Source: Haloarcula halophila
GTDB lineage: Archaea; Halobacteriota; Halobacteria; Halobacteriales; Haloarculaceae
Assembly (NCBI RefSeq): GCF_029278565.1
Contig: NZ_CP119559.1
Coordinates: forward strand, 1,612,001 to 1,676,000
Length of the DNA stretch: 64,000 bases
Direction: 5' to 3'
A program made the position numbers and the translations under genes. Positions 14,779 to 44,962 of this stretch are shown in pieces. Under the pieces are notes generated by a model. That model ran no database searches, was not told where the DNA came from, and was given only the letters and a program-made list of their open reading frames with translations. Position 1 is the stretch's first letter. Each line of letters starts with the position of its first letter.

Positions 14779-15275
14779 CGGGTACTCGGGTCCGGCCAAC
14801 GATAGATGACGTACGTATTCGTCTCCTCGCTGGTGGCCGGTTCCCAGACGATCCGGAGTGTCGCCTCGCTCAGGTCGAGATGTTCGCCCGACCCGACGCC
14901 GCTGAACTGCTTCGCGTTGATACTGATCTCCGTGCCCGAACTGATCTCGGTCGGGGCCTGTGCCTGTATCGGATTCCCGGTCAGCGAGACGTCGTTCCCG
15001 CTGGAGTCTTTCGCGTCGCTCACCGTCACCGAGAGCTCGTTTCGCTGGAGCGTCTCACCGCTCCCGACAGTCAGGTTGAGATACTCGCCGTTCGGGCTGG
15101 TCTCTTTACTGTAGTCGGCGACGATCGCCGTCTGTGGCGCGTTTTGCGGCTGCTGTTGGCCGATATTGAGGACGAACGTCCCGACCACGGCCGCGAGAAT
15201 CACGACGATAGCGACCATCAGTACCACACCGATGACGGTGCTTACCCCCCGCTCGTTCCCAGCGTCATCCCTCAT
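14775..15275 (-). CDS. Archaeal type IV pilin-like secreted protein
   Basis: A 166-residue protein starting MRDDAGNERGVSTVIGVVLMVAIVVILAAVVGTFVL. This is the class III (prepilin peptidase) signal of haloarchaeal pilins, with cleavage expected after RG and an adjacent hydrophobic helix that would form the pilus core. The remaining 125 residues are Ser/Thr/Gly-rich beta-type sequence, probably exposed at the surface. The frame is open to 15473, but the upstream 66 residues are not pilin-like and the signal fixes the start at 15275. There are no pilus-assembly genes beside it, so it would use machinery encoded elsewhere. Convergent with the TrmB-type gene. Confidence 0.82.
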   Translation of the reverse strand: MRDDAGNERGVSTVIGVVLMVAIVVILAAVVGTFVLNIGQQQPQNAPQTAIVADYSKETSPNGEYLNLTVGSGETLQRNELSVTVSDAKDSSGNDVSLTGNPIQAQAPTEISSGTEISINAKQFSGVGSGEHLDLSEATLRIVWEPATSEETNTYVIYRWPDPSTR

Positions 15276-22245: not shown

Positions 22246-22381
22246 CGTGAATCGCGTACACTCCTGTGAGGAACCGTCATGATACAACTGGCCGTGAGTC
22301 TCCAACGATCACCAGCAGTTTTCACTTTCACTTTGGTTGACTGGTATTTACGTTCCCACAACTCCTACTGGTAGTTGGCAG

Positions 22382-23722
<1,341 letters not shown>

Positions 23723-26889: not shown

Positions 26890-26933
26890 CGTCGTCCCGT
26901 TGGCCGTCGAGACGTAAATGTCGTCGGCGTCGT

Positions 26934-26969
26934 TATCCGGTCCGATAATCGCCCCAGTAGAGTCATATG
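26934..26969 (+). promoter_or_regulatory. TATC-N6-GATA operator and TATA element of the first exported/GT-C-like pair
   Basis: Perfect dyad TTATC-CGGTCC-GATAA at 26933-26948, core TATC 26934-26937 and GATA 26944-26947. A CATATG TATA-like element follows at 26964-26969, about 25-30 nt before ATG 26994. Spacing from GATA to TATA (about 16 nt) resembles that in the archaellin, cheY and cheW promoters. Confidence 0.6.
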
Positions 26970-26993: not shown

Positions 26994-27476
26994 ATGTCGC
27001 TCCCGCGCCCGCTGGCGGCGCTGGCCGTTGCGGTCGCTGTCCTCGCGTTCGTCTCCGGCCCGCTGGTCGGTGCCGTCGACCTCACGCGGGCGACTCCCCC
27101 GCCGGGAGCCGGCCAGGCGGACGTCTCCGTCGAGTCGGTCCCCGACGGGGGGATCGTCCTCGAACGGGGTCGGTTCGGTGCCGGGCGATACCACCTGTCC
27201 GCGCCCCCCGCGGTCGTCTCAGTCGATTCCGTCGAAGGAAACCCTGTCGTCCGGTACACGATCGACATCCCGGAACTGTGGACGACGGCGACAAGCAGAT
27301 ACGCGCTGGCCGGCCGCGGCGGCGAACGAGTCCAGCTCCGACCGAACCCGTTAGGAATCAGTCCGGACCGGATCGAGCGGGAGAGCTACGAGGCGACCGT
27401 CGCCGTCTGGCTGCGGACCGGCGACAGGGAGCGTGACCTGGTCCAGCGCCGCATCACGATCGAGGTCGAGCGATGA
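26994..27476 (+). CDS. Small exported protein of unknown function, copy 1 of duplicated pair
   Basis: 160 residues from ATG 26994, starting MSLPRPLAALAVAVAVLAF, a signal peptide or N-terminal anchor, followed by a beta-rich domain. An in-frame ATG at 26967 adds nine residues but would leave no room for a promoter behind the operator. It is a divergent paralogue of the protein encoded at 40129-40608: both have GPL(V/I)G after the helix, then (V/L)DLTR-like sequence, GRFG, and V-x(2)-V-x-G-x-P motifs. Its stop overlaps the start of the membrane-protein gene by 4 nt (ATGA), exactly as in copy 2. Function unknown. Confidence 0.7.
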   Translation: MSLPRPLAALAVAVAVLAFVSGPLVGAVDLTRATPPPGAGQADVSVESVPDGGIVLERGRFGAGRYHLSAPPAVVSVDSVEGNPVVRYTIDIPELWTTATSRYALAGRGGERVQLRPNPLGISPDRIERESYEATVAVWLRTGDRERDLVQRRITIEVER

Positions 27477-29431
27477 GCGAGGGCGTCCTCGACCGGTTGC
27501 TCGCCGGCGAGACAGTCACTGTCTCGGAGTTGCGGACAGCGGTGGTTCGCTCGGTCTTCGGGGACCGGATCGGGGCGCTTGTCGGGCTCGCCGCGATCGT
27601 CTGGTTCGCGCTCTACTGGGAGCTGAACTTCTTCTCCAGCGACCAGTACACGTTCGCGAACACGCTCGTCGGCGTCGTCGAGGGACACCTCTCCATCGAC
27701 GAGGCCGTCTACGGGCCGCCATCGGGCTCGACACCGGGGACCTCCCTCGTCGACGGTCGGGTCTACGGCCGGAACTACGGCGTCGTCGTCGTCTCGGCGG
27801 TGTGGCTCGTCGTCTATCGGCTCCTCTCAGTACTCCTCGACCTCCGGGTACTCCTGGTCGGCCTGTGGTCGCTGGCCGTCGCCGTCCTGAGCTACGGGAT
27901 CGGGACCGTGATCGGCCGGGAACGGGCGGGGACACTGCTCGGAGCGGGGATCGGGGCAGCCGTCTTCGTGGGGAACCTCGCGGTCGCGACGCCGCTCCCG
28001 CCGCGGTGGCTACCGGTGTTGGCCCTCCAGACGACCACCGCACTCGCTGCCGCGTTCGTCGCCGTCGTCTGCTATCGACTGGGGAACGCAGCGTACACGC
28101 GTCGCGTCGGGCTCGCGATGGGTGTGGTCGCCGCCGTCGGGACGCCGGTCGGGTTCTGGGCGACCGTCCCGAAACGCCACAGCGTCACCGCCCTGTTGGT
28201 CGTCCTGGCGATGTACACCCTCTACCGGAGCCGAGCGGCGACGACCCGCCGGCGCGCGAGGCGGTTCCGAGCGCTGACCTACGCCTGGGTCGGGGCCGCG
28301 GCCTGGGTTCACGCGGCGGAGGGGTTCATCCTGTTGCTCGCGGTCGCGGCGGTCGATCTGCCGACGGCACGGTCGAACCGCGCCCGTGACCTCGCCGTCG
28401 TTGGGGTCGCCCTGTTCCTCTCGCTGGTCCCGTTCTTCCTGACGAACTGGCTGATCGCGGGCAACCCAGTGGAGCCTCCCCGGCTCCTGCCGAACTACGG
28501 CGGCGACGTGCTCAGTCCGGGAGCGACCGAGGGCGGATCGGCTACGCAGGGAGGGGCGGGCGGGGGAACCACAGGGGGAGATACGGCGTCGGCCGAGTCG
28601 ACCGGCGACGGGTCCGGGAGCGGTCTCAGCGCCGTCGTCGCGACCGCCGTCGGGCTGTTCGGCCGGCGACTACCGGGGCTGTTCATGGGATCGTACGGAC
28701 TGTTCCTCACCGACCCCGGGCGGATCGCTGCGATCTTCGTCCGGACTGGCTATCTCGGCGGGCTCACGTCCTCCGAGGACGCCGCGGTCAACCTGAGCGT
28801 GCTGGCGTCGATGCCGCTGTTGGGAGCACTCGTCGCGGCCCCGATGTTGGCCGGGAAGCGGCACCTGTCGGCGGTCCGGTCCCCGAACGAGTGGTCCGCT
28901 ATCCGGGTCCTCGACGCCTTCTCGGTCGGCTACGTCGTGTTGCTACTGGGCGTCTTCTTGGGCTCGCTCCCGGTCCATCACATGTTCACCGTCCGGTACC
29001 TCCACCCGCTGTACGTCGTCGGCGTCTACTGGCTGGCCCGACTGCCGGCAGTCCGGCGTGTCGTCGACTCGCAGGGTCGCGTGCTCGCGGCGACGACGGC
29101 GACCACCGCAGTAGCCGGGACTGGCGTGTATCTGGCTGCGATCGCCGGCGGCGACCTCGTCCTGGACGAGTCCGTTCAGGTGTACGCACTGTGGGCGCTG
29201 GCGGTCGCCGTCGTCGCCCTCGCGTGGGCGGTCCTGGCGACGACACGCTCCGGAGTCGATCGTGCCGGCGCGGTCGTCCTCGGGGTCGCCGCCGGGTCGA
29301 TGGCGGCGTACCTACTGGTCAGCGGGCTTTCGCTGTTTCCCGTCTCCGGGGAGTTCCTCCTGCCGGGATCGCGGGTTCTCAGCGACGCTGTCCACTACAC
29401 TCGACTCTACGGCAGTTCGCCGCCGTTCTGA
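27473..29431 (+). CDS. Polytopic membrane protein, GT-C glycosyltransferase-like, copy 1
   Basis: 652 residues with about 12-13 hydrophobic helices. The first extracytoplasmic loop carries SDQYTFANTLV followed by DGRVYGRNYG; an acidic residue in this loop is typical of GT-C enzymes that use lipid-linked sugars. Other segments shared with the paralogue at 40605-42551 are GTPVGFWAT(V/I)PKRH, W(V/I)HA-x-EGF, NP(V/A)EPPR-x-LPN and TVRYLHP. A Gly/Ser/Thr-rich loop near residues 350-385 is probably outside the cell. The GT-C assignment rests on topology and loop pattern only. It abuts cheF convergently. Confidence 0.7.
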   Translation: MSEGVLDRLLAGETVTVSELRTAVVRSVFGDRIGALVGLAAIVWFALYWELNFFSSDQYTFANTLVGVVEGHLSIDEAVYGPPSGSTPGTSLVDGRVYGRNYGVVVVSAVWLVVYRLLSVLLDLRVLLVGLWSLAVAVLSYGIGTVIGRERAGTLLGAGIGAAVFVGNLAVATPLPPRWLPVLALQTTTALAAAFVAVVCYRLGNAAYTRRVGLAMGVVAAVGTPVGFWATVPKRHSVTALLVVLAMYTLYRSRAATTRRRARRFRALTYAWVGAAAWVHAAEGFILLLAVAAVDLPTARSNRARDLAVVGVALFLSLVPFFLTNWLIAGNPVEPPRLLPNYGGDVLSPGATEGGSATQGGAGGGTTGGDTASAESTGDGSGSGLSAVVATAVGLFGRRLPGLFMGSYGLFLTDPGRIAAIFVRTGYLGGLTSSEDAAVNLSVLASMPLLGALVAAPMLAGKRHLSAVRSPNEWSAIRVLDAFSVGYVVLLLGVFLGSLPVHHMFTVRYLHPLYVVGVYWLARLPAVRRVVDSQGRVLAATTATTAVAGTGVYLAAIAGGDLVLDESVQVYALWALAVAVVALAWAVLATTRSGVDRAGAVVLGVAAGSMAAYLLVSGLSLFPVSGEFLLPGSRVLSDAVHYTRLYGSSPPF

Positions 29432-30295
29432 CTACTGATCGGACATCGCCTCGCTGGCGATCGACCGCCCGCGGGCCTCCAGTTGGACCTCGCGTCGGGT
29501 CCGGACCGGCTCCAGAATGTCGGCCTCCAGCAGGCGGTCGTACACCTCCTCGACCGTCTCGATCTCCATGTCGACGAACTCCGGGATCTTGAACGGCGAG
29601 ATGCCGGAGTACAACGCCATCAACACCTGTGTCTCCTCGTCGGAGAGTTCGATGTCGTCGGCGACGTTCCGCTGTTCGCCCTGCCGGACCAACCCCTCCA
29701 GCAGTGAGACGTGTCGGGCACCACCGGAGATGTGGGTCTCGACGCTGGTTCCGTCGACAGTGTGTTCGACTTCGAGCACCGGGCGCTCCTCGCCACTGAC
29801 CGTCTTCTCTTTCGCGTCGACGGTCCCGACGTCGTCGATGTCGAGTTCGACGAACGTCCCCGACGTGATCGCGAGGTTGATGCAGTCGCCGTCGAGTTTG
29901 ACGCGGGCCTTCTCCCAGCCGATCTCCTGGACGACGCCGCCCTCGACGGCGGGGTGTTTGGTGAGGACGACGATCTGGTCGAGTAAGGTGCTGTAGAGCT
30001 GGTCCTCGAACTCCTCGTCGGCCCGGGGCGCGACGAGTGTCACGTCCCTGCCCGACCGGAGTTTCACGTAGCTGTCGACCTGTGCGAGGGGCTGGTTCAT
30101 CTGGCTGGCGGTGACGGCGGTCAGCGACGACAGCGGGATCGTCCGCTTGCCCTCGTTCGTGGCCAGTACCAGCCGTTTGTTCGACAGCAGGATACGTCCG
30201 GGGACCCACTCGATGTCGTTGCGTTTTCGCCCGTCCTTGACGACCTGGACGAACTTGCCTTGCGTATCGAGGAGTTTGCGCTCTCCGTCGCTCAT
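29432..30295 (-). CDS. cheF: Chemotaxis protein CheF (archaellum adaptor)
   Basis: 287 residues matching archaeal DUF439/CheF proteins. These link CheY, CheC/CheD and the HEAT-repeat protein to the archaellum motor, as shown in Halobacterium salinarum. It begins MSDGERKLLDTQGKFVQVVKDGRK, with a PH-like beta domain (ILLSNKRLVLATNEGKRTIPL) and a C-terminal winged-helix-like part (LSDEETQVLMALYSGI). It lies 82 nt downstream of the HEAT-repeat gene, the last gene of the cheB-cheA-cheR operon, and may be read from it; a weak CTCAAGTACC element in the gap could start it separately. Confidence 0.9.
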   Translation of the reverse strand: MSDGERKLLDTQGKFVQVVKDGRKRNDIEWVPGRILLSNKRLVLATNEGKRTIPLSSLTAVTASQMNQPLAQVDSYVKLRSGRDVTLVAPRADEEFEDQLYSTLLDQIVVLTKHPAVEGGVVQEIGWEKARVKLDGDCINLAITSGTFVELDIDDVGTVDAKEKTVSGEERPVLEVEHTVDGTSVETHISGGARHVSLLEGLVRQGEQRNVADDIELSDEETQVLMALYSGISPFKIPEFVDMEIETVEEVYDRLLEADILEPVRTRREVQLEARGRSIASEAMSDQ

Positions 30296-36161: not shown

Positions 36162-36887
36162 ATGATAGAAATAACGAAAACAGGCATCGAGGGGCTCGAT
36201 TCCATTCTAAACGGCGGCATTGTCACCGATTCGACGACGCTGGTGAGCGGAAACCCGGGCGCCGGGAAGTCGATCCTCTGCCTTCAGTACATCTACAACG
36301 GCGTCGACCAGTTCGACGAGAAGGGGATCTACCTCTCTTTCGAGGAAAACGAAGCGGATCTCCGGGAGGCAGCGGAGTCGATCGGCTTCGACAAGTGGCC
36401 GGAGTTCGTCGAGAACGGCGACATCAAGGTGTACGACAAACAGGTACTGCTGCGGGAAAACGACTTCTCCTCGTCGCTCGATCTCCTCCTCGACGACCTC
36501 GAAGACGAAGAGTACGATCGGCTCGTCCTCGACTCGCTTGCGATGTTCAACCTCTTCTTCGACGACGAAGCCGAGAAACGGACGTATCTCCTGAAGTTCA
36601 CCGATATCCTGCGGAGTAACGGACTCACCACGCTGATGACCAACGAGCAGGGGGCGGTCTTTCCGGACACCGAGATCGGGCTAGAGAACTACCTCACCGA
36701 CGGGAACATCTACCTGATCCAGACGCCGACCGACTCCGGCGTCAGCCGATACGTCTGGGTGGCGAAGATGCGCAAGCAGGACATCGAGACGGATATCTTC
36801 CCGATGGAGATCGAGTGGGGTGGGATTCAAGTCCACGAAAACGCGAGCGCGTTCTCGATGATGAGCGAAGAGGATTCGCCGCTCTAA
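36162..36887 (+). CDS. Single-domain KaiC/RadA-like ATPase
   Basis: 241 residues of one KaiC-type RecA fold. Walker A is GNPGAGKS at 30-37, the paired acidic residues are in YLSFEENEADL, and Walker B is in DRLVLDSLAMF. It is related in fold to ArlH but clearly a separate gene; arlH is at 47517-48281. It lies between cheW and the winged-helix gene, inside the motility cluster, so a signalling or switch role is possible, but nothing in the sequence proves it. ATGATAGAAATAACG-type AT-rich start codons and a CTTTTTACC box upstream define the start. Confidence 0.8.
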   Translation: MIEITKTGIEGLDSILNGGIVTDSTTLVSGNPGAGKSILCLQYIYNGVDQFDEKGIYLSFEENEADLREAAESIGFDKWPEFVENGDIKVYDKQVLLRENDFSSSLDLLLDDLEDEEYDRLVLDSLAMFNLFFDDEAEKRTYLLKFTDILRSNGLTTLMTNEQGAVFPDTEIGLENYLTDGNIYLIQTPTDSGVSRYVWVAKMRKQDIETDIFPMEIEWGGIQVHENASAFSMMSEEDSPL

Positions 36888-36991: not shown

Positions 36992-37018
36992 AGCTATCAA
37001 AGGCGATAGCTTTATGAA
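36992..37018 (+). promoter_or_regulatory. Operator abutting the TATA box of the winged-helix gene
   Basis: AGCTATC at 36992-36998, six bases AAAGGC, then GATAGCT at 37005-37011 form a perfect 7-bp-arm dyad containing the TATC-N6-GATA core. The TATA element TTTATGAA (37011-37018) begins on its last base, about 28 nt before ATG 37044. A protein bound here would cover the TFB/TBP site, so repression is expected. Confidence 0.65.
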
Positions 37019-37043: not shown

Positions 37044-37379
37044 ATGGCTTCGGCGGAGATCCTACAGACGCTGGGGAACAAATACAGCGCCGAGATTCTC
37101 GATGCCACCGACGAACCCGTGTCGGCCCAAGATCTGAGCGACGAGCTGGGCATTCCGATCGCGACATGTTATCGGCGGATCGACGAGCTCACCGAGCACG
37201 ATCTGCTCGAACTACACGACAACATTCTCTCCGACGACCGGCGGCGCATCAAAGTGTACCGCCGAAACGTCGACGAACTCCGGGTCGACTTCGAGGACGA
37301 GATGACGATCCACATCGAAGAGCGGTCGGAAGTGACGAACAAACTCGACGAGGCGTGGCGAACCCTCTCGGACGGCTAA
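37044..37379 (+). CDS. Small winged helix-turn-helix regulator of the motility cluster
   Basis: 111 residues. A winged helix occupies residues about 1-75: LGNKYSAEILDATDEPVSAQDLSDELGIPIATCYRRIDEL, with recognition helix near IATCYRRID, then a wing LSDDRRRIKVYRRN. A short C-terminal acidic helix could dimerise. It resembles ArsR/MarR-like archaeal regulators. Its promoter carries the TATC-N6-GATA dyad fused to the TATA element, while motility promoters carry the same core upstream of TATA. The inferred role is an autorepressor and regulator of archaellum and chemotaxis genes. No direct proof; another protein could bind these sites. Confidence 0.85.
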   Translation: MASAEILQTLGNKYSAEILDATDEPVSAQDLSDELGIPIATCYRRIDELTEHDLLELHDNILSDDRRRIKVYRRNVDELRVDFEDEMTIHIEERSEVTNKLDEAWRTLSDG

Positions 37380-37400: not shown

Positions 37401-37435
37401 TATCAGCAGAGATATTTTAGAGGGTGGATTTATGC
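37401..37435 (+). promoter_or_regulatory. TATC-N6-GATA operator and TATA box of the 3-TM gene
   Basis: TATC-AGCAGA-GATA at 37401-37414, then TATA-like GATTTATG at 37428-37435, about 25-32 nt before ATG 37460. The whole stretch from CGTTATCAG to GATATTTT is nearly identical to the archaellin 1 promoter at 37903-37923. Confidence 0.6.
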
Positions 37436-37905: not shown

Positions 37906-37978
37906 TATCAGGAGAGATATTTTCGGGAGAGGTATTATAACCAGTGAAACAGACGAACTGATAGGGTCAGAGAGACCC
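37906..37978 (+). promoter_or_regulatory. Archaellin 1 promoter: operator, TATA box and 5'-UTR hairpin
   Basis: TATC-AGGAGA-GATA at 37906-37919 is followed 15 nt later by ATTATA (37934-37939). The transcript would have a leader of about 25 nt containing the stem GGGTC-AGAGA-GACCC (37964-37978), ten bases before ATG 37989. The hairpin is conserved in the archaellin 2 leader. Upstream, an imperfect inverted repeat GGAAACGGAC/GTCCGGTTCC lies at 37839-37866. Confidence 0.6.
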
Positions 37979-37988
37979 GGACCAACCA

Positions 37989-38594
37989 ATGTTCATGGAA
38001 TCAGACGAGGACCGCGGGCAAGTCGGGATCGGCACCCTCATCGTGTTCATCGCGATGGTGCTGGTCGCCGCTATCGCCGCAGGCGTCCTCATCAACACCG
38101 CCGGCTTCCTCCAGAGCAGCGCCGAGGAAACCGGACAGCAGAGTAGCGACCAAGTCACCAACCGCCTCGAAGTCGTCAACACCGTCGGTGACGACATCAA
38201 CCAGGACGATAAAGTGATCCACACGGTCGAGGTGACGGTCAAGAAGGCACCCGGTGCGGCCAATATCGATATGGGTAGCACTATCGCCCAGTGGGTCGAC
38301 ACCAGTGGCTCCTACGACCTTACCTACGGAGAGTCTGCAAATGCCTCGTACTTCTCCATTAGTACTGTTCAAGACGACGATTCGTCGATCACGGACAGCC
38401 AGGTGCTGAACGACCCATCGGATCGTGCGACGCTCAAGTTCAGTGCGCAAAGTATTCGTGGCGGGACCAATACTGATGGACTCGGTGAGGGTGAAACTGC
38501 AACCATCCAACTGAACACCCAGTCCGGCGGGACCACGACGGTCCGCCTCGTCACTCCGGAGACCTTGTCCGGTAACTCCGCGGTCACCCTGTAA
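37989..38594 (+). CDS. arlA: Archaellin (archaellum filament protein) 1
   Basis: 201 residues. The short class III signal [10 protein letters not shown] is followed by [31 protein letters not shown], the filament-core helix; cleavage by the prepilin peptidase is expected after G10. The surface domain is beta-rich, Asp/Ser/Thr-rich and ends [29 protein letters not shown] and similar sequons could be glycosylated. It is closely paralogous to the next gene, with near-identical N-terminal coding DNA. The stop is followed by GCTCTTTTCG, a likely terminator. Confidence 0.96.
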
Positions 38595-38802: not shown

Positions 38803-39447
38803 ATGTTCATGCAATCTTCAGATGACGACGACCGCGGGCAGGTCGGGATCGGTACCCTCATCGTGTTCATCGCGATGGTGCTGGTCGCCGCTATCGCCGC
38901 AGGCGTCCTCATCAACACCGCCGGCTTCCTCCAGAGCAGCGCCGAGGAAACCGGACAGCAGAGTAGCGACCAAGTCACCAACCGCCTCGAAGTCGTCAAC
39001 ACCGTCGGTACCGAAATCAACGGTGACGCGAAGACGGTCGACCTGGTCGAGGTGACGGTCAAGAAAGCGCCTGGTGCGGCCAACATCGACCTCGGGAGTA
39101 CCATCGCTCAGTGGGTCGACACGACCGGCTCGTACGATCTCACCTATGGCGACAACACGGGCAATACCGATGCGCCGAACTCGACGGCGTTCAGCGTCGA
39201 CGGGGTGCAGGACGACGACTCGTCGATCTCAGACAGCCAGGTCCTCAACGACCCGGCCGACCGAGCGACGATTACCTTCGACGTGGACGACATCCGTACG
39301 GACAGTAACGACGCCAGTTACGACGGCGACGGCCTCGGTGAAGGTGAAACTGCGACCATCCAAATGAACACCCAGTCCGGTGGGACCTCGACCGTCCGCC
39401 TCGTCGCTCCGGAGACCCTGTCCGGTAACTCCGCGGTCACCCTGTAA
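38803..39447 (+). CDS. arlA: Archaellin (archaellum filament protein) 2
   Basis: 214 residues, paralogue of the preceding archaellin. The signal is [12 protein letters not shown] and the core helix is the same [13 protein letters not shown] segment. The central surface part is longer and differs ([31 protein letters not shown]), while the end NSAVTL is shared. It contains an NST sequon. The 5' third is almost identical in DNA to gene 1, suggesting recent duplication or gene conversion. It has its own promoter and a T-rich stretch after the stop. Confidence 0.96.
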
Positions 39448-39516: not shown

Positions 39517-40083
39517 ATGGCACAGGGGTCAGACGACACGAACCCTGAGGACGGGAAGATTCTCTCCCCCGAGGAGCTCGACATCGCGGAGGACGAACAC
39601 GTCACACAGATCGACGACGGGCGGTACGTCGTCTCCTCGGACGTGCGGACCGACGAGAAGTACGGGAACGCCGCGAACACAGCTGACCCCCAACCGGAAC
39701 CCACCCCGGAGCCGGAACCCGACCCGACGCCGGAGTTCACCGACGCGAACGTCCACGAGTGGCTGGCCGAGCAGATGGACGACTCCAACGCCCGGTACGG
39801 CTTCGACGTGACCGCGAAGTTCGACGGCGAAGTCGACCAACAGCAGTTGGTCTCGAACGACATCGTGACCGTTTTCGAGAGCTTTATGCTCTGGTACGGG
39901 CGGCAGATGGACGGTTCGACCCCGGTCGAAGACGTACTGGGTATTCTGCTCTCGGAGTCGAACGTGCCGGTTCGATACCCGCCCGAGAGCATCAAGACGC
40001 TGTTACGGTCGACCCAACTCTCGCCCGACGATACGATCGCCGACCTCATCGAAGCAGTCGACGACGACGGGATCGAACTCTGA
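39517..40083 (+). CDS. Conserved archaellum-cluster protein of unknown function
   Basis: 188 residues, no signal or membrane helix. An acidic N-terminus (SPEELDIAEDEHVTQIDDGRYVVS) leads into a Pro/Glu-rich spacer of repeated PEPE/PTPE units (about residues 58-75) and an alpha-helical C-terminal domain (NDIVTVFESFMLWYGRQ, SPDDTIADLIEAVDDDG). I cannot assign a function; proteins of this layout are found near haloarchaeal archaellin genes. GTTATACC at 39488-39495 is about 25 nt before the ATG. No TATC-N6-GATA dyad is seen upstream. Confidence 0.75.
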   Translation: MAQGSDDTNPEDGKILSPEELDIAEDEHVTQIDDGRYVVSSDVRTDEKYGNAANTADPQPEPTPEPEPDPTPEFTDANVHEWLAEQMDDSNARYGFDVTAKFDGEVDQQQLVSNDIVTVFESFMLWYGRQMDGSTPVEDVLGILLSESNVPVRYPPESIKTLLRSTQLSPDDTIADLIEAVDDDGIEL

Positions 40084-40128: not shown

Positions 40129-40608
40129 ATGACACCCCGGTCGCTCCCGTCACTCGTTGCCGCAATGGTCGCGCTCGCGCTCGTCGTTACCGGTCCGTTG
40201 ATCGGACTCGACGTGACCCGTAGCTCGCCGGACTCGTTCGGCGAAGGGGACGCGACAGTCGCTGCCGTCGACATCGAGGACAGCGAGCTCCGGGTGACGG
40301 CCGGTCGTTTCGGAACCGACGTGTCGTACCTTCGAGTGCCGACTGCGAGGGTGACTGTCGGTGAGGTGACCGGGCGACCGCGCCTAGTCTATCTGGTGGC
40401 GGTTCCGTCGGCAGGCATCGACCTTGTCTCGACGGCCCTGGTGACCGAGTCCGCACGAACCTACGCGGTCGATCCGGGCGACCAGGGAATCGAGTCGGGG
40501 AGTCTCGAACGGGGGACGATCACAGCGACTGTAACGGTTCGTGTCCAGAGTTTCTCGGTCGATCGAACGGTCACGCGACAGAACGTCACCGTAGAGGTGC
40601 AGGCATGA
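40129..40608 (+). CDS. Small exported protein of unknown function, copy 2 of duplicated pair
   Basis: 159 residues beginning MTPRSLPSLVAAMVALALVVTGPLIG, a signal peptide or anchor, with a beta-rich exported domain. It is paralogous to 26994-27476, with matching GRFG, V-x(2)-V-x-G-x-P and terminal VTVEV segments. ATTTATTC at 40093-40100 lies about 29-36 nt before ATG 40129, favouring this start over an alternative codon at 40114. The stop overlaps the following membrane-protein gene by 4 nt. Unlike copy 1 there is no full operator in front, only a lone GATA half-site at 40109-40112. Confidence 0.7.
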   Translation: MTPRSLPSLVAAMVALALVVTGPLIGLDVTRSSPDSFGEGDATVAAVDIEDSELRVTAGRFGTDVSYLRVPTARVTVGEVTGRPRLVYLVAVPSAGIDLVSTALVTESARTYAVDPGDQGIESGSLERGTITATVTVRVQSFSVDRTVTRQNVTVEVQA

Positions 40609-42551
40609 CAGGGGAGTCCGACGCGAGATCGGGTGGCAACACCAGTCACCAACTGGCCGACCGGGTCCGTCGGAGCAAGCGGTGGGTGTTCCACGATCGG
40701 TACGGACTGGCGCTCTGGCTGGGGCTCGTGCTCGCGTTCGGGCTGACCTGGCGCGTGGGCTTTTTCATCCAGGATACGTACGCCACGGCCAACGCCCTCG
40801 TGGCGCTAGCGAACGGACAGCTCCACGTCACGGAGGTTCGATACTCGCTGTCGCTGGGATCGTTACCGGGGATGTACGAGGTCGACGGGAGGCTGTACGG
40901 CCGCAACTACGGACAGCTCGCGCTCGCCGTCCCGTTCGTCTGGCTGCTGGAAGCGAGTACGGCCGTCGTCGATCCTGGGCTAGTTCTCCCGGGGCTGTGG
41001 GCGCTCTGTGGGCTCGCGTTCGTTCGGACCGTGGCTGGACTGGAGCGGTTCGACCGCGACTGGACGATCACGCTCGGGTCAGTTGCGGTCCTCGCGTGGT
41101 TCGTCGCGTCGCTCCGTACGGCGACGGATCTGGGCCCGGACCAGCTCGCACTGGTGGGGTATCAACTGTCGACGCTGCTTGCAGCCGCGACGCTCGGCCT
41201 CCTGGTGTATCGGCTGGTGACGCTCGTCCACGGCAGACGGACCGGGCTGGCGGCGGGACTGGCTACCGGGTTCGCGACGCCCGTCGGCTTCTGGGCGACC
41301 ATCCCGAAGCGACACACCTTGGTGGCTGCGATGGTCGTCGGTGTCGTCTACGCGTTCGCAGTGAGCCGTCACAGCGAGGGCAAAGCGGCGATGCGGGCTC
41401 GGGCCGGTGCGTACGCGCTGGCCGGGTTAGTCACGTGGATACACGCCTTCGAGGGGTTCTTTCTGGTCGTCGTCCTGGGGACCGTCGACCTCTTGACCGG
41501 GGGTCGGCCCCGTCCCCGCCGGCTCCTGGTGATCGGTGTCGTCCTCCTGTTGGCGCTGACGCCGATGCTGGCGACGAACTACGCCATCTCCGGGAACCCC
41601 GCAGAACCGCCTCGGGTGTTACCGAACGCTGAAACCGGCCAGACCGACGGGCAGACGCCGCCCGAACAGGACGTGGGCGAATCCGAACCGGTGGCCGATC
41701 CAGACGGTGGGAGTGACAGTGGGGAGCAGCCGTCGACAGTGGATCGTCTCCTGCCGCTAGTCGTGACGCTCTTCGGCCTCGTCTACGAGTTCGCGGGCCG
41801 GTCGTTCGTTGGCGGCCTCGGTGTGCTCGGCCAGCCCGAGCGGCTGATCGATATCTTCCTCCGGAGCGGGCGGATCGCCGGGGTGAAATACCGGATCAAC
41901 GGCTACGAAGTGGTCGAACTGGCGTTGCTGGAGGCGATGCCGATCGCCGGTGCCGTAGCTGCGCTTCCGGTGGCCGCAGCCCGCCGGGTTCGGGACGGAA
42001 CCGAACGCATCCGGCGGTCGGCCCGCCCGTGGACGCTCTCCCCTGTTCGACAGACCGACCTGCTCGTCTGTGCGCTCGCGGCGGTGTTGGCGATCGTCTA
42101 TCTCCCACGACTCCCGCTTTTCAGCCAGCTCACCGTCCGGTATCTCCATCCAGTGGTCCCGCTGCTGGGCTACGGTGTCGTCCGACTACCGGCAGTCCGT
42201 GCCGGGATCGAGAGCGACTGGCGGCTGCAGGCGGGCGGTTCGCTGGGCTGGTTCGCTCTGACCACAGCCGGGATGCTCGGCGCGATCACGACGCTGTCGC
42301 TCGCACTCGGAGAGGCAGTGCAGTTACACGCGCTCCTCGCGTTCCTGTCGGCGATCGGCTGGGCGGCGGCGGTCGTCGCCCGGACGCTCACACCGCGACG
42401 GGTCGACAGACGGCTCGTCGCGGTCTGTGGGGCGTCGGCCGTCGGCGTCGGTGCCTCGTACGTGGTCCTGTCGGCACTCGTCTACTTCCGATACGGGCAG
42501 TACGCACTGGCCGTGGTTCGGGCCGTCGCAGCCGGCCTACCGACAGTCTGA
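40605..42551 (+). CDS. Polytopic membrane protein, GT-C glycosyltransferase-like, copy 2
   Basis: 648 residues with about 12-13 helices, paralogous along its length to 27473-29431. The first loop carries QDTYATANALV and DGRLYGRNYG. Later segments are GFATPVGFWATIPKRH, WIHAFEGFF, NPAEPPRVLPN and TVRYLHPVVPL. The central extracytoplasmic loop (about residues 345-385) is low complexity and acidic here but Gly-rich in copy 1. If it is a GT-C enzyme, a lipid-linked sugar donor and an exported acceptor such as archaellin or its small partner would be expected; this is inference. It precedes cheY. Confidence 0.7.
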   Translation: MTGESDARSGGNTSHQLADRVRRSKRWVFHDRYGLALWLGLVLAFGLTWRVGFFIQDTYATANALVALANGQLHVTEVRYSLSLGSLPGMYEVDGRLYGRNYGQLALAVPFVWLLEASTAVVDPGLVLPGLWALCGLAFVRTVAGLERFDRDWTITLGSVAVLAWFVASLRTATDLGPDQLALVGYQLSTLLAAATLGLLVYRLVTLVHGRRTGLAAGLATGFATPVGFWATIPKRHTLVAAMVVGVVYAFAVSRHSEGKAAMRARAGAYALAGLVTWIHAFEGFFLVVVLGTVDLLTGGRPRPRRLLVIGVVLLLALTPMLATNYAISGNPAEPPRVLPNAETGQTDGQTPPEQDVGESEPVADPDGGSDSGEQPSTVDRLLPLVVTLFGLVYEFAGRSFVGGLGVLGQPERLIDIFLRSGRIAGVKYRINGYEVVELALLEAMPIAGAVAALPVAAARRVRDGTERIRRSARPWTLSPVRQTDLLVCALAAVLAIVYLPRLPLFSQLTVRYLHPVVPLLGYGVVRLPAVRAGIESDWRLQAGGSLGWFALTTAGMLGAITTLSLALGEAVQLHALLAFLSAIGWAAAVVARTLTPRRVDRRLVAVCGASAVGVGASYVVLSALVYFRYGQYALAVVRAVAAGLPTV

Positions 42552-42570: not shown

Positions 42571-42606
42571 TATCAGACGCGATAATTTACGGGACACCTT
42601 TATTTA
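42571..42606 (+). promoter_or_regulatory. TATC-N6-GATA operator and TATA box of cheY-cheC-cheD
   Basis: TATC-AGACGC-GATA at 42571-42584, then CCTTTATTTA at 42597-42606, which gives a short leader to ATG 42638. GATA-to-TATA spacing (about 13 nt) matches the archaellin promoters. Confidence 0.6.
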
Positions 42607-44931: not shown

Positions 44932-44962
44932 TATCACTTGTGATAGGCTAGACGGAATATTG
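44932..44962 (+). promoter_or_regulatory. TATC-N6-GATA operator and TATA box of the arlCE-J operon
   Basis: TATC-ACTTGT-GATA at 44932-44945, with extended arms TATCAC/GTGATA, is followed about 10 nt later by GAATATTG (44955-44962), 31-38 nt before ATG 44993. The surrounding 44870-44970 stretch is markedly AT-rich. A leader hairpin CTGAG/CTCAG is possible near 44971-44987. Confidence 0.65.

Follow-up and report, generated by a model that had tools for sequence, protein, structure and literature searches.

Two copies of a two-gene unit, consisting of a small exported protein and a large membrane protein, are present in the 64,000-nucleotide stretch of the Haloarcula halophila genome analyzed here (the window). 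We propose, with a probability of roughly 0.6, that this unit is a glycosylation module dedicated to type IV filaments, made up of a GT-C glycosyltransferase and an adaptor and probably transferring a non-N-linked glycan.

Pair 1 consists of a small protein of 160 amino acids (26994–27476) and a membrane protein of 652 amino acids (27473–29431), pair 2 of a small protein of 159 amino acids (40129–40608) and a membrane protein of 648 amino acids belonging to the archaellin-associated clade (40605–42551); all four genes are located on the plus strand. In both pairs the ORFs overlap by 4 nt with the sequence ATGA, at 27473–27476 and 40605–40608. BLASTP aligned the two membrane proteins with 36% identity over 616 columns (E 4e-77) and the two small proteins with 32% identity over 158 positions (E 8e-20), and the five blocks DGR-x-YGRNYG, FWAT-x-PKRH, HA-x-EGF, EPPR-x-LPN and TVRYLHP are all common to both pairs. 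ORFs and BLASTP thereby confirm the same gene order, the overlaps, the shared blocks and the paralogy that a sequence-only reading had described. Its placement of the pairs at the border and inside of the motility cluster was likewise correct: a complete che/arl cluster extends from 29432 to 51701, with pair 1 directly outside, convergent with cheF (29432–30295, minus strand), and pair 2 inside. The cluster comprises cheF, a HEAT-repeat protein, cheR, cheA, cheB, cheW, a KaiC-like protein, a winged-helix regulator and DUF7521, followed by two archaellins (37989–38594 and 38803–39447, both plus strand), the proposed targets with one N-X-S/T sequon each, then DUF7500 (39517–40083, plus strand), pair 2, cheY, cheC, cheD, arlCDE and arlF-J. 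The DUF7500 gene, a constant neighbor between archaellins and pair 2, adjoins archaellins in those clusters of Haloarculaceae that were read, and lies near archaellins in Natrinema too. The H. halophila genome contains three copies of the membrane protein family; the third belongs to a pair elsewhere in the genome, with pilins 450 and 1826 bp upstream. Far from both pairs, the window also contains a Pilin_N match on the minus strand (15012–15251, E 2e-21), in a region where the simple gene caller placed the start of the ORF differently, and an IS605 OrfB/TnpB-like gene (OrfB_IS605, Cas12f1-like TNB) at 22337–23722 shows a GC3 unusually low for the genome.

The membrane protein of pair 1 was modelled with AlphaFold2 from 46 sequences at a pLDDT of 88 and a pTM of 0.90. 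In the structural alignment the 49 best matches were all GT-C-type proteins, with Z scores from 19.3 to 7.5 and covering residues 15–642. They include Pmt1-Pmt2 (19.3), ALG12 (18.4), ArnT (18.2), yeast STT3 (17.8), AftB (17.6), AglB (16.8), ALG9 (16.3), PglB (15.7), ALG3 (12.8) and PimE (7.5), directly below which the first unrelated chain appeared at Z 6.8. Two of the 49, chains 9ub7 and 8imx (Z 12.4 and 9.8), belong to the GPI transamidase complex, and we count them as GT-C-like. Sequence searches recorded much less: scanning the four pair proteins against Pfam and NCBIfam gave nothing above cut-off. For the membrane protein neither database returned a PMT match, the STT3 model of Pfam gave no match, and a putative glycosyltransferase family of NCBIfam matched weakly (E 1.7e-4), far under its cut-off. 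A profile search of PDB sequences returned no homologue, merely chance and low-complexity matches. In the model the chain ends past the last membrane helices, with no fused soluble C-terminal domain. On this model and the structural comparison we are confident that the membrane protein adopts the predicted GT-C fold; the sequence-only reading had called it GT-C-like and suggested structure prediction as a check, which returned no fold of another type.

The 112 paired members that were aligned share eight residues without exception (D57, N63, G71, H236, D295, N325, R508 and Q569 in pair 1 numbering). Among them D57 is the conserved acidic residue of the first extracytoplasmic loop, behind the first membrane helix. 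Likened by chain position, this is presumably where GT-C enzymes hold a catalytic or metal-binding acidic residue.

The small protein of pair 1 was modelled (AlphaFold2, pLDDT 90.9) with a single N-terminal membrane helix followed by an Ig-like beta-sandwich, so that the partner is predicted to be a membrane-anchored Ig-like domain. The earlier suggestion of an exported partner for the GT-C protein agrees with these confident models. Fold neighbors of the small protein were uninformative, being generic Ig-like sandwiches with a best Z of 9.5, and matches to DksA, autotransporters and porins were discarded as chance-level. The trees of small and membrane proteins correlate with r 0.84, compared to a maximum of 0.07 after permutation; since most of this correlation reflects shared ancestry, we draw no conclusion on contact from it.

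We surveyed the family across the class; of 391 genomes sampled, 78 encode the membrane protein. The gene of the small partner immediately precedes that of the enzyme in 113 of 120 sampled loci, usually with the 4-nt overlap; these loci include many close relatives and their counts are not independent. A pilin or archaellin gene was detected by motif within 2.5 kb of 78 of the 113 paired copies, a PilA-type pilin in 49 and an archaellin in 29, and a profile search added two pilin-like neighbors, giving 80. The pair is mostly located just downstream of the filament gene: of the 127 filament genes found upstream, 125 share its strand (84/86 pilins, 41/41 archaellins), and none was found at a distance of 3–6 kb, though most loci include that much flank. 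The H. halophila genome shows 19 Pilin_N matches in 4.04 Mb, so a random stretch of 7 kb is expected to include one in about 3% of cases. Partnerless enzyme copies had no filament neighbor in any of seven cases (Fisher p 0.0005). Orthologues of pair 2 are found in the archaellum clusters of several lineages, namely in Haloarculaceae and beside archaellins in Natrinema and Natronomonas; many archaellum clusters lack the pair, and its presence is not universal to the archaellum. The pair is tied to type IV filament subunits rather than to motility alone. The neighborhood survey bears out the link to the archaellum cluster that had been proposed, while "tied to motility" proved too narrow, because many members are located beside type IV pilins outside motility clusters and some in sugar-nucleotide clusters. 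A gene starting MDRLK-SLL-APIIEK (e.g. L040 11902–12471), which we take to encode probably a purine phosphoribosyltransferase, is a frequent downstream neighbor of pilin-linked pairs.

In a careful tree the archaellin-associated enzymes form one clade with 100/99 support that spans several haloarchaeal families. Within it the gene order in Haloarculaceae is archaellin, DUF7500, pair, cheY, and another order is found in Natrinema and Natronomonas. Pair 1 enzymes form a separate clade of eight Haloarcula sequences (100/100), which have cheF alone nearby. A grouping of pair 1 with Haloarcula pair 2, as expected from local duplication, was rejected (p-AU 6.7e-154). The two pairs had been described as duplicated; paralogous they are, but judging from the trees they are old paralogues which arrived at the same cluster and not the product of a duplication within it. 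The phylogeny also bears on the possibility that the pair modifies another surface component, such as the S-layer protein, a polysaccharide or a lipid, and is close to filament genes through shared regulation only. Such a role would suit the 26 of 113 paired copies without a recognized filament gene nearby, pair 1 with its cheF neighbor only, and the members found in polysaccharide clusters, but it leaves unexplained why subfamilies follow the filament type, as the archaellin clade does, and why an orphan partner remains with the archaellins when the enzyme relocates (see below). We regard it as quite improbable.

Split pairs were observed in four Halorientalis-like genomes (loci L220, L221, L222 and L224), in which an orphan small gene is located between DUF7500 and cheY. 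The orphan proteins are closest to the small proteins of the archaellin clade. Three of the four genomes (G103, G126 and G202) encode a partnerless archaellin-clade enzyme elsewhere (L165, L170 and L166, respectively); in the genome of L222 (G256) a search for an archaellin-type enzyme found none. In named relatives, such partnerless enzymes have glycan genes around them: in Halorientalis marina (L041) these encode two epimerases, one sugar transferase, one nucleotidyltransferase and one UDP-glucose dehydrogenase, in H. pallida (L057) one sugar transferase together with a group 1 glycosyltransferase. The small protein staying with the filament while the enzyme moves with sugar genes fits an adaptor and a glycosyltransferase. 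We also considered that the pair serves as a filament assembly, anchoring or quality-control factor, the GT-C fold being retained without glycosyltransferase activity. The tight filament linkage and the clean presence or absence of the pair between DUF7500 and cheY are compatible with such a factor, but partnerless members among sugar-nucleotide genes are not what it predicts, and the invariant acidic and basic residues are as expected for an active enzyme; we assign it very little weight.

We determined the number of N-X-S/T sequons in the archaellins in comparison to shuffled sequences. Archaellins accompanied by the pair (41 proteins in 30 clusters, from several families) contain 15 sequons versus 90 expected, and the six archaellins of split-pair genomes contain none versus 11 expected. 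Most archaellins of pairless Haloarculaceae have 2–6 sequons, and outside Haloarcula the ratio is 1.24, in totals which include a false archaellin ORF in L226 that was left out of the tree test. Exceptions are L217, L218 and L219 from Haloarcula as well as L233, with neither pair nor sequons and with long archaellins of about 280–460 residues. In L217, L218 and L219, which lack pair 2, the archaellins measure 440–460 residues and the cluster includes an inverted archaellin-like gene, possibly a switching locus or part of another modification system. On the cheC tree we counted six independent contrasts, about four of them in the predicted direction and none opposite (sign test p about 0.12, not significant), using a threshold of two sequons that was chosen once the data had been seen. 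The clearest case is given by sister genomes: the archaellins of L120, with the pair, have 0 and 0 sequons, those of L216, without it, 4 and 4. Eight genomes with the pair or with a split pair were checked for genes of the STT3/AglB family, and each of them has such genes; losing the N-glycosylation enzyme therefore does not account for the depletion. Among pilins the contrast is weaker than among archaellins: the sequon ratio is 0.44 for 95 pilins beside the pair, 0.72 for 14 pilins encoded elsewhere in pair-bearing genomes and 1.67 for nine pilins of three genomes without the family. Ser/Thr content of the archaellins showed no clear difference between groups. The earlier idea of an action on archaellins gains indirect support from gene order, split pairs and sequon depletion, the acceptor itself being one that we infer.

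Sequon depletion also weighs on an alternative in which the GT-C enzyme would elongate or complete an N-glycan, either lipid-linked or already bound to protein, and would lie close to filament genes because filaments count among the major N-glycoproteins. A parallel is known from Haloferax, where AglS adds the last mannose. The GT-C fold is common to the lipid-linked glycan enzymes ALG12, ALG9 and ALG3, and partnerless Halorientalis members are located in glycan gene clusters. However, archaellins accompanied by the pair have hardly any sequons and therefore little N-glycan to extend, and a shared glycan needs no filament-matched enzyme with its own partner. This alternative appears unlikely to us.

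Upstream of pair 1 the operator TTATC-N6-GATAA is found at 26933–26948 (core TATC-N6-GATA at 26934–26947). The window contains six such cores versus 0.13 expected, all between 26.9 and 45 kb. The other five, at 36995–37008, 37401–37414, 37906–37919, 42571–42584 and 44932–44945, read TATCA-N5-GATA, are located upstream of the winged-helix regulator, DUF7521, archaellin, cheY and arlCDE and recur at similar upstream distances in other Haloarculaceae clusters. CsmR of Haloferax, a 13-kDa winged-helix protein encoded upstream of archaellins, binds TATCA-N4-TGATA (PMC13286277), and the five sites resemble its ChIP-seq motif. The small winged-helix gene at 37044–37379 (plus strand), which has its own operator at 36995–37008, would by place and size be the counterpart of CsmR. 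Together with the KaiC-like gene at 36162–36887 it forms a couple beside the archaellins that resembles CirA and CsmR of Haloferax. The core upstream of pair 1 is kept in six of seven other Haloarcula genomes with pair 1, while its 6-nt spacer varies, which supports, at the level of nucleotide conservation, that pair 1 may be controlled along with motility. The operator of this copy had been called perfect. The core is indeed present, but the word is slightly generous, because the half-sites of pair 1 read TATCC and CGATA whereas the five other sites and the CsmR consensus (PMC13286277) read TATCA. Genome-wide we found 44 TATC-N6-GATA sites versus 8 for the reversed control; only one of 20 other genomic stretches with such sites includes a chemoreceptor gene; by itself the core therefore does not single out motility genes.

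For the proposed glycosylation module we envisage the following mechanism. On the outer membrane face, the GT-C enzyme would accept an activated sugar, or a short glycan, carried on a lipid. With the help of the invariant Asp57 of its first outer loop, it would transfer this to a type IV filament subunit, onto the subunit's extracellular domain, ahead of assembly. The small partner, anchored by its N-terminal helix with the Ig-like domain outside, may recognize or present the acceptor and thereby replace a soluble domain of the kind that is built into many protein glycosyltransferases of the GT-C type. Each paralogous module would be matched to a filament, pair 2 to archaellins and the third genomic copy to pilins; pair 1 would be a second module, probably controlled by the motility operator. 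The loss of N-glycosylation sequons from archaellins that go with the module makes an N-linkage improbable, and we consider O-linkage, to Ser or Thr, the likeliest. A point against the module is that the GT-C superfamily includes enzymes whose substrates are lipid-linked glycans or lipids, which leaves the protein acceptor a prediction. Fold, pairing, filament linkage, sequon depletion and operator are computed results, whereas enzymatic activity, lipid-linked donor, glycan linkage and partner function are, like the acceptor, predicted. A wider proposal, which we hold tentatively and at somewhat less than even odds, is that the pairs constitute a two-component glycosylation reserved for type IV filaments, made of a GT-C transferase and an exported adaptor that binds the acceptor, with a matched paralogue for each filament type, replacing AglB-dependent N-glycosylation of archaella and representing the first archaeal O-glycosylation enzyme. 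Among the papers returned by our literature searches, a few of which were read in part, we recognized none describing the pair. Located beside sequon-poor archaellins, it is a concrete candidate for the missing archaeal O-glycosylation pathway. It predicts which species should bear non-N-linked filament glycans and would explain how some archaella might manage without N-glycans, and one module would connect pili and archaella.

Comparison with known systems shows likeness in several directions. The protein O-mannosyltransferases Pmt1/Pmt2/Pmt4 (GT39) are the best structural match (Z 19.3 and 17.9) and are membrane GT-C enzymes with exported proteins as substrates, as predicted for the pair enzyme, but no significant sequence similarity was found, and the pair enzyme has no MIR domain and has a separate small Ig-like partner. 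AglB is the known glycosylation enzyme for archaellins and pilins of haloarchaea and shares the GT-C fold together with STT3 and PglB; unlike these oligosaccharyltransferases, the pair enzyme has neither a fused soluble C-terminal domain nor an STT3 Pfam match, and goes with archaellins poor in N-X-S/T sequons. ArnT, the lipid A aminoarabinose transferase, has the same fold (Z 18.2) and is the best Foldseek match (E 6.7e-4), but it has no partner protein of this kind, and its substrate is lipid A, which archaea are not known to possess. A like genetic logic is found in TfpO/PilO, bacterial pilin-linked O-oligosaccharyltransferases of the Wzy_C/WaaL family encoded beside pilA. As is proposed for the pair, a membrane glycosylation enzyme is there the neighbor of the pilin that it modifies, whereas the pair enzyme shows no Wzy_C/WaaL match, has an exported partner and is located beside archaellins as well.
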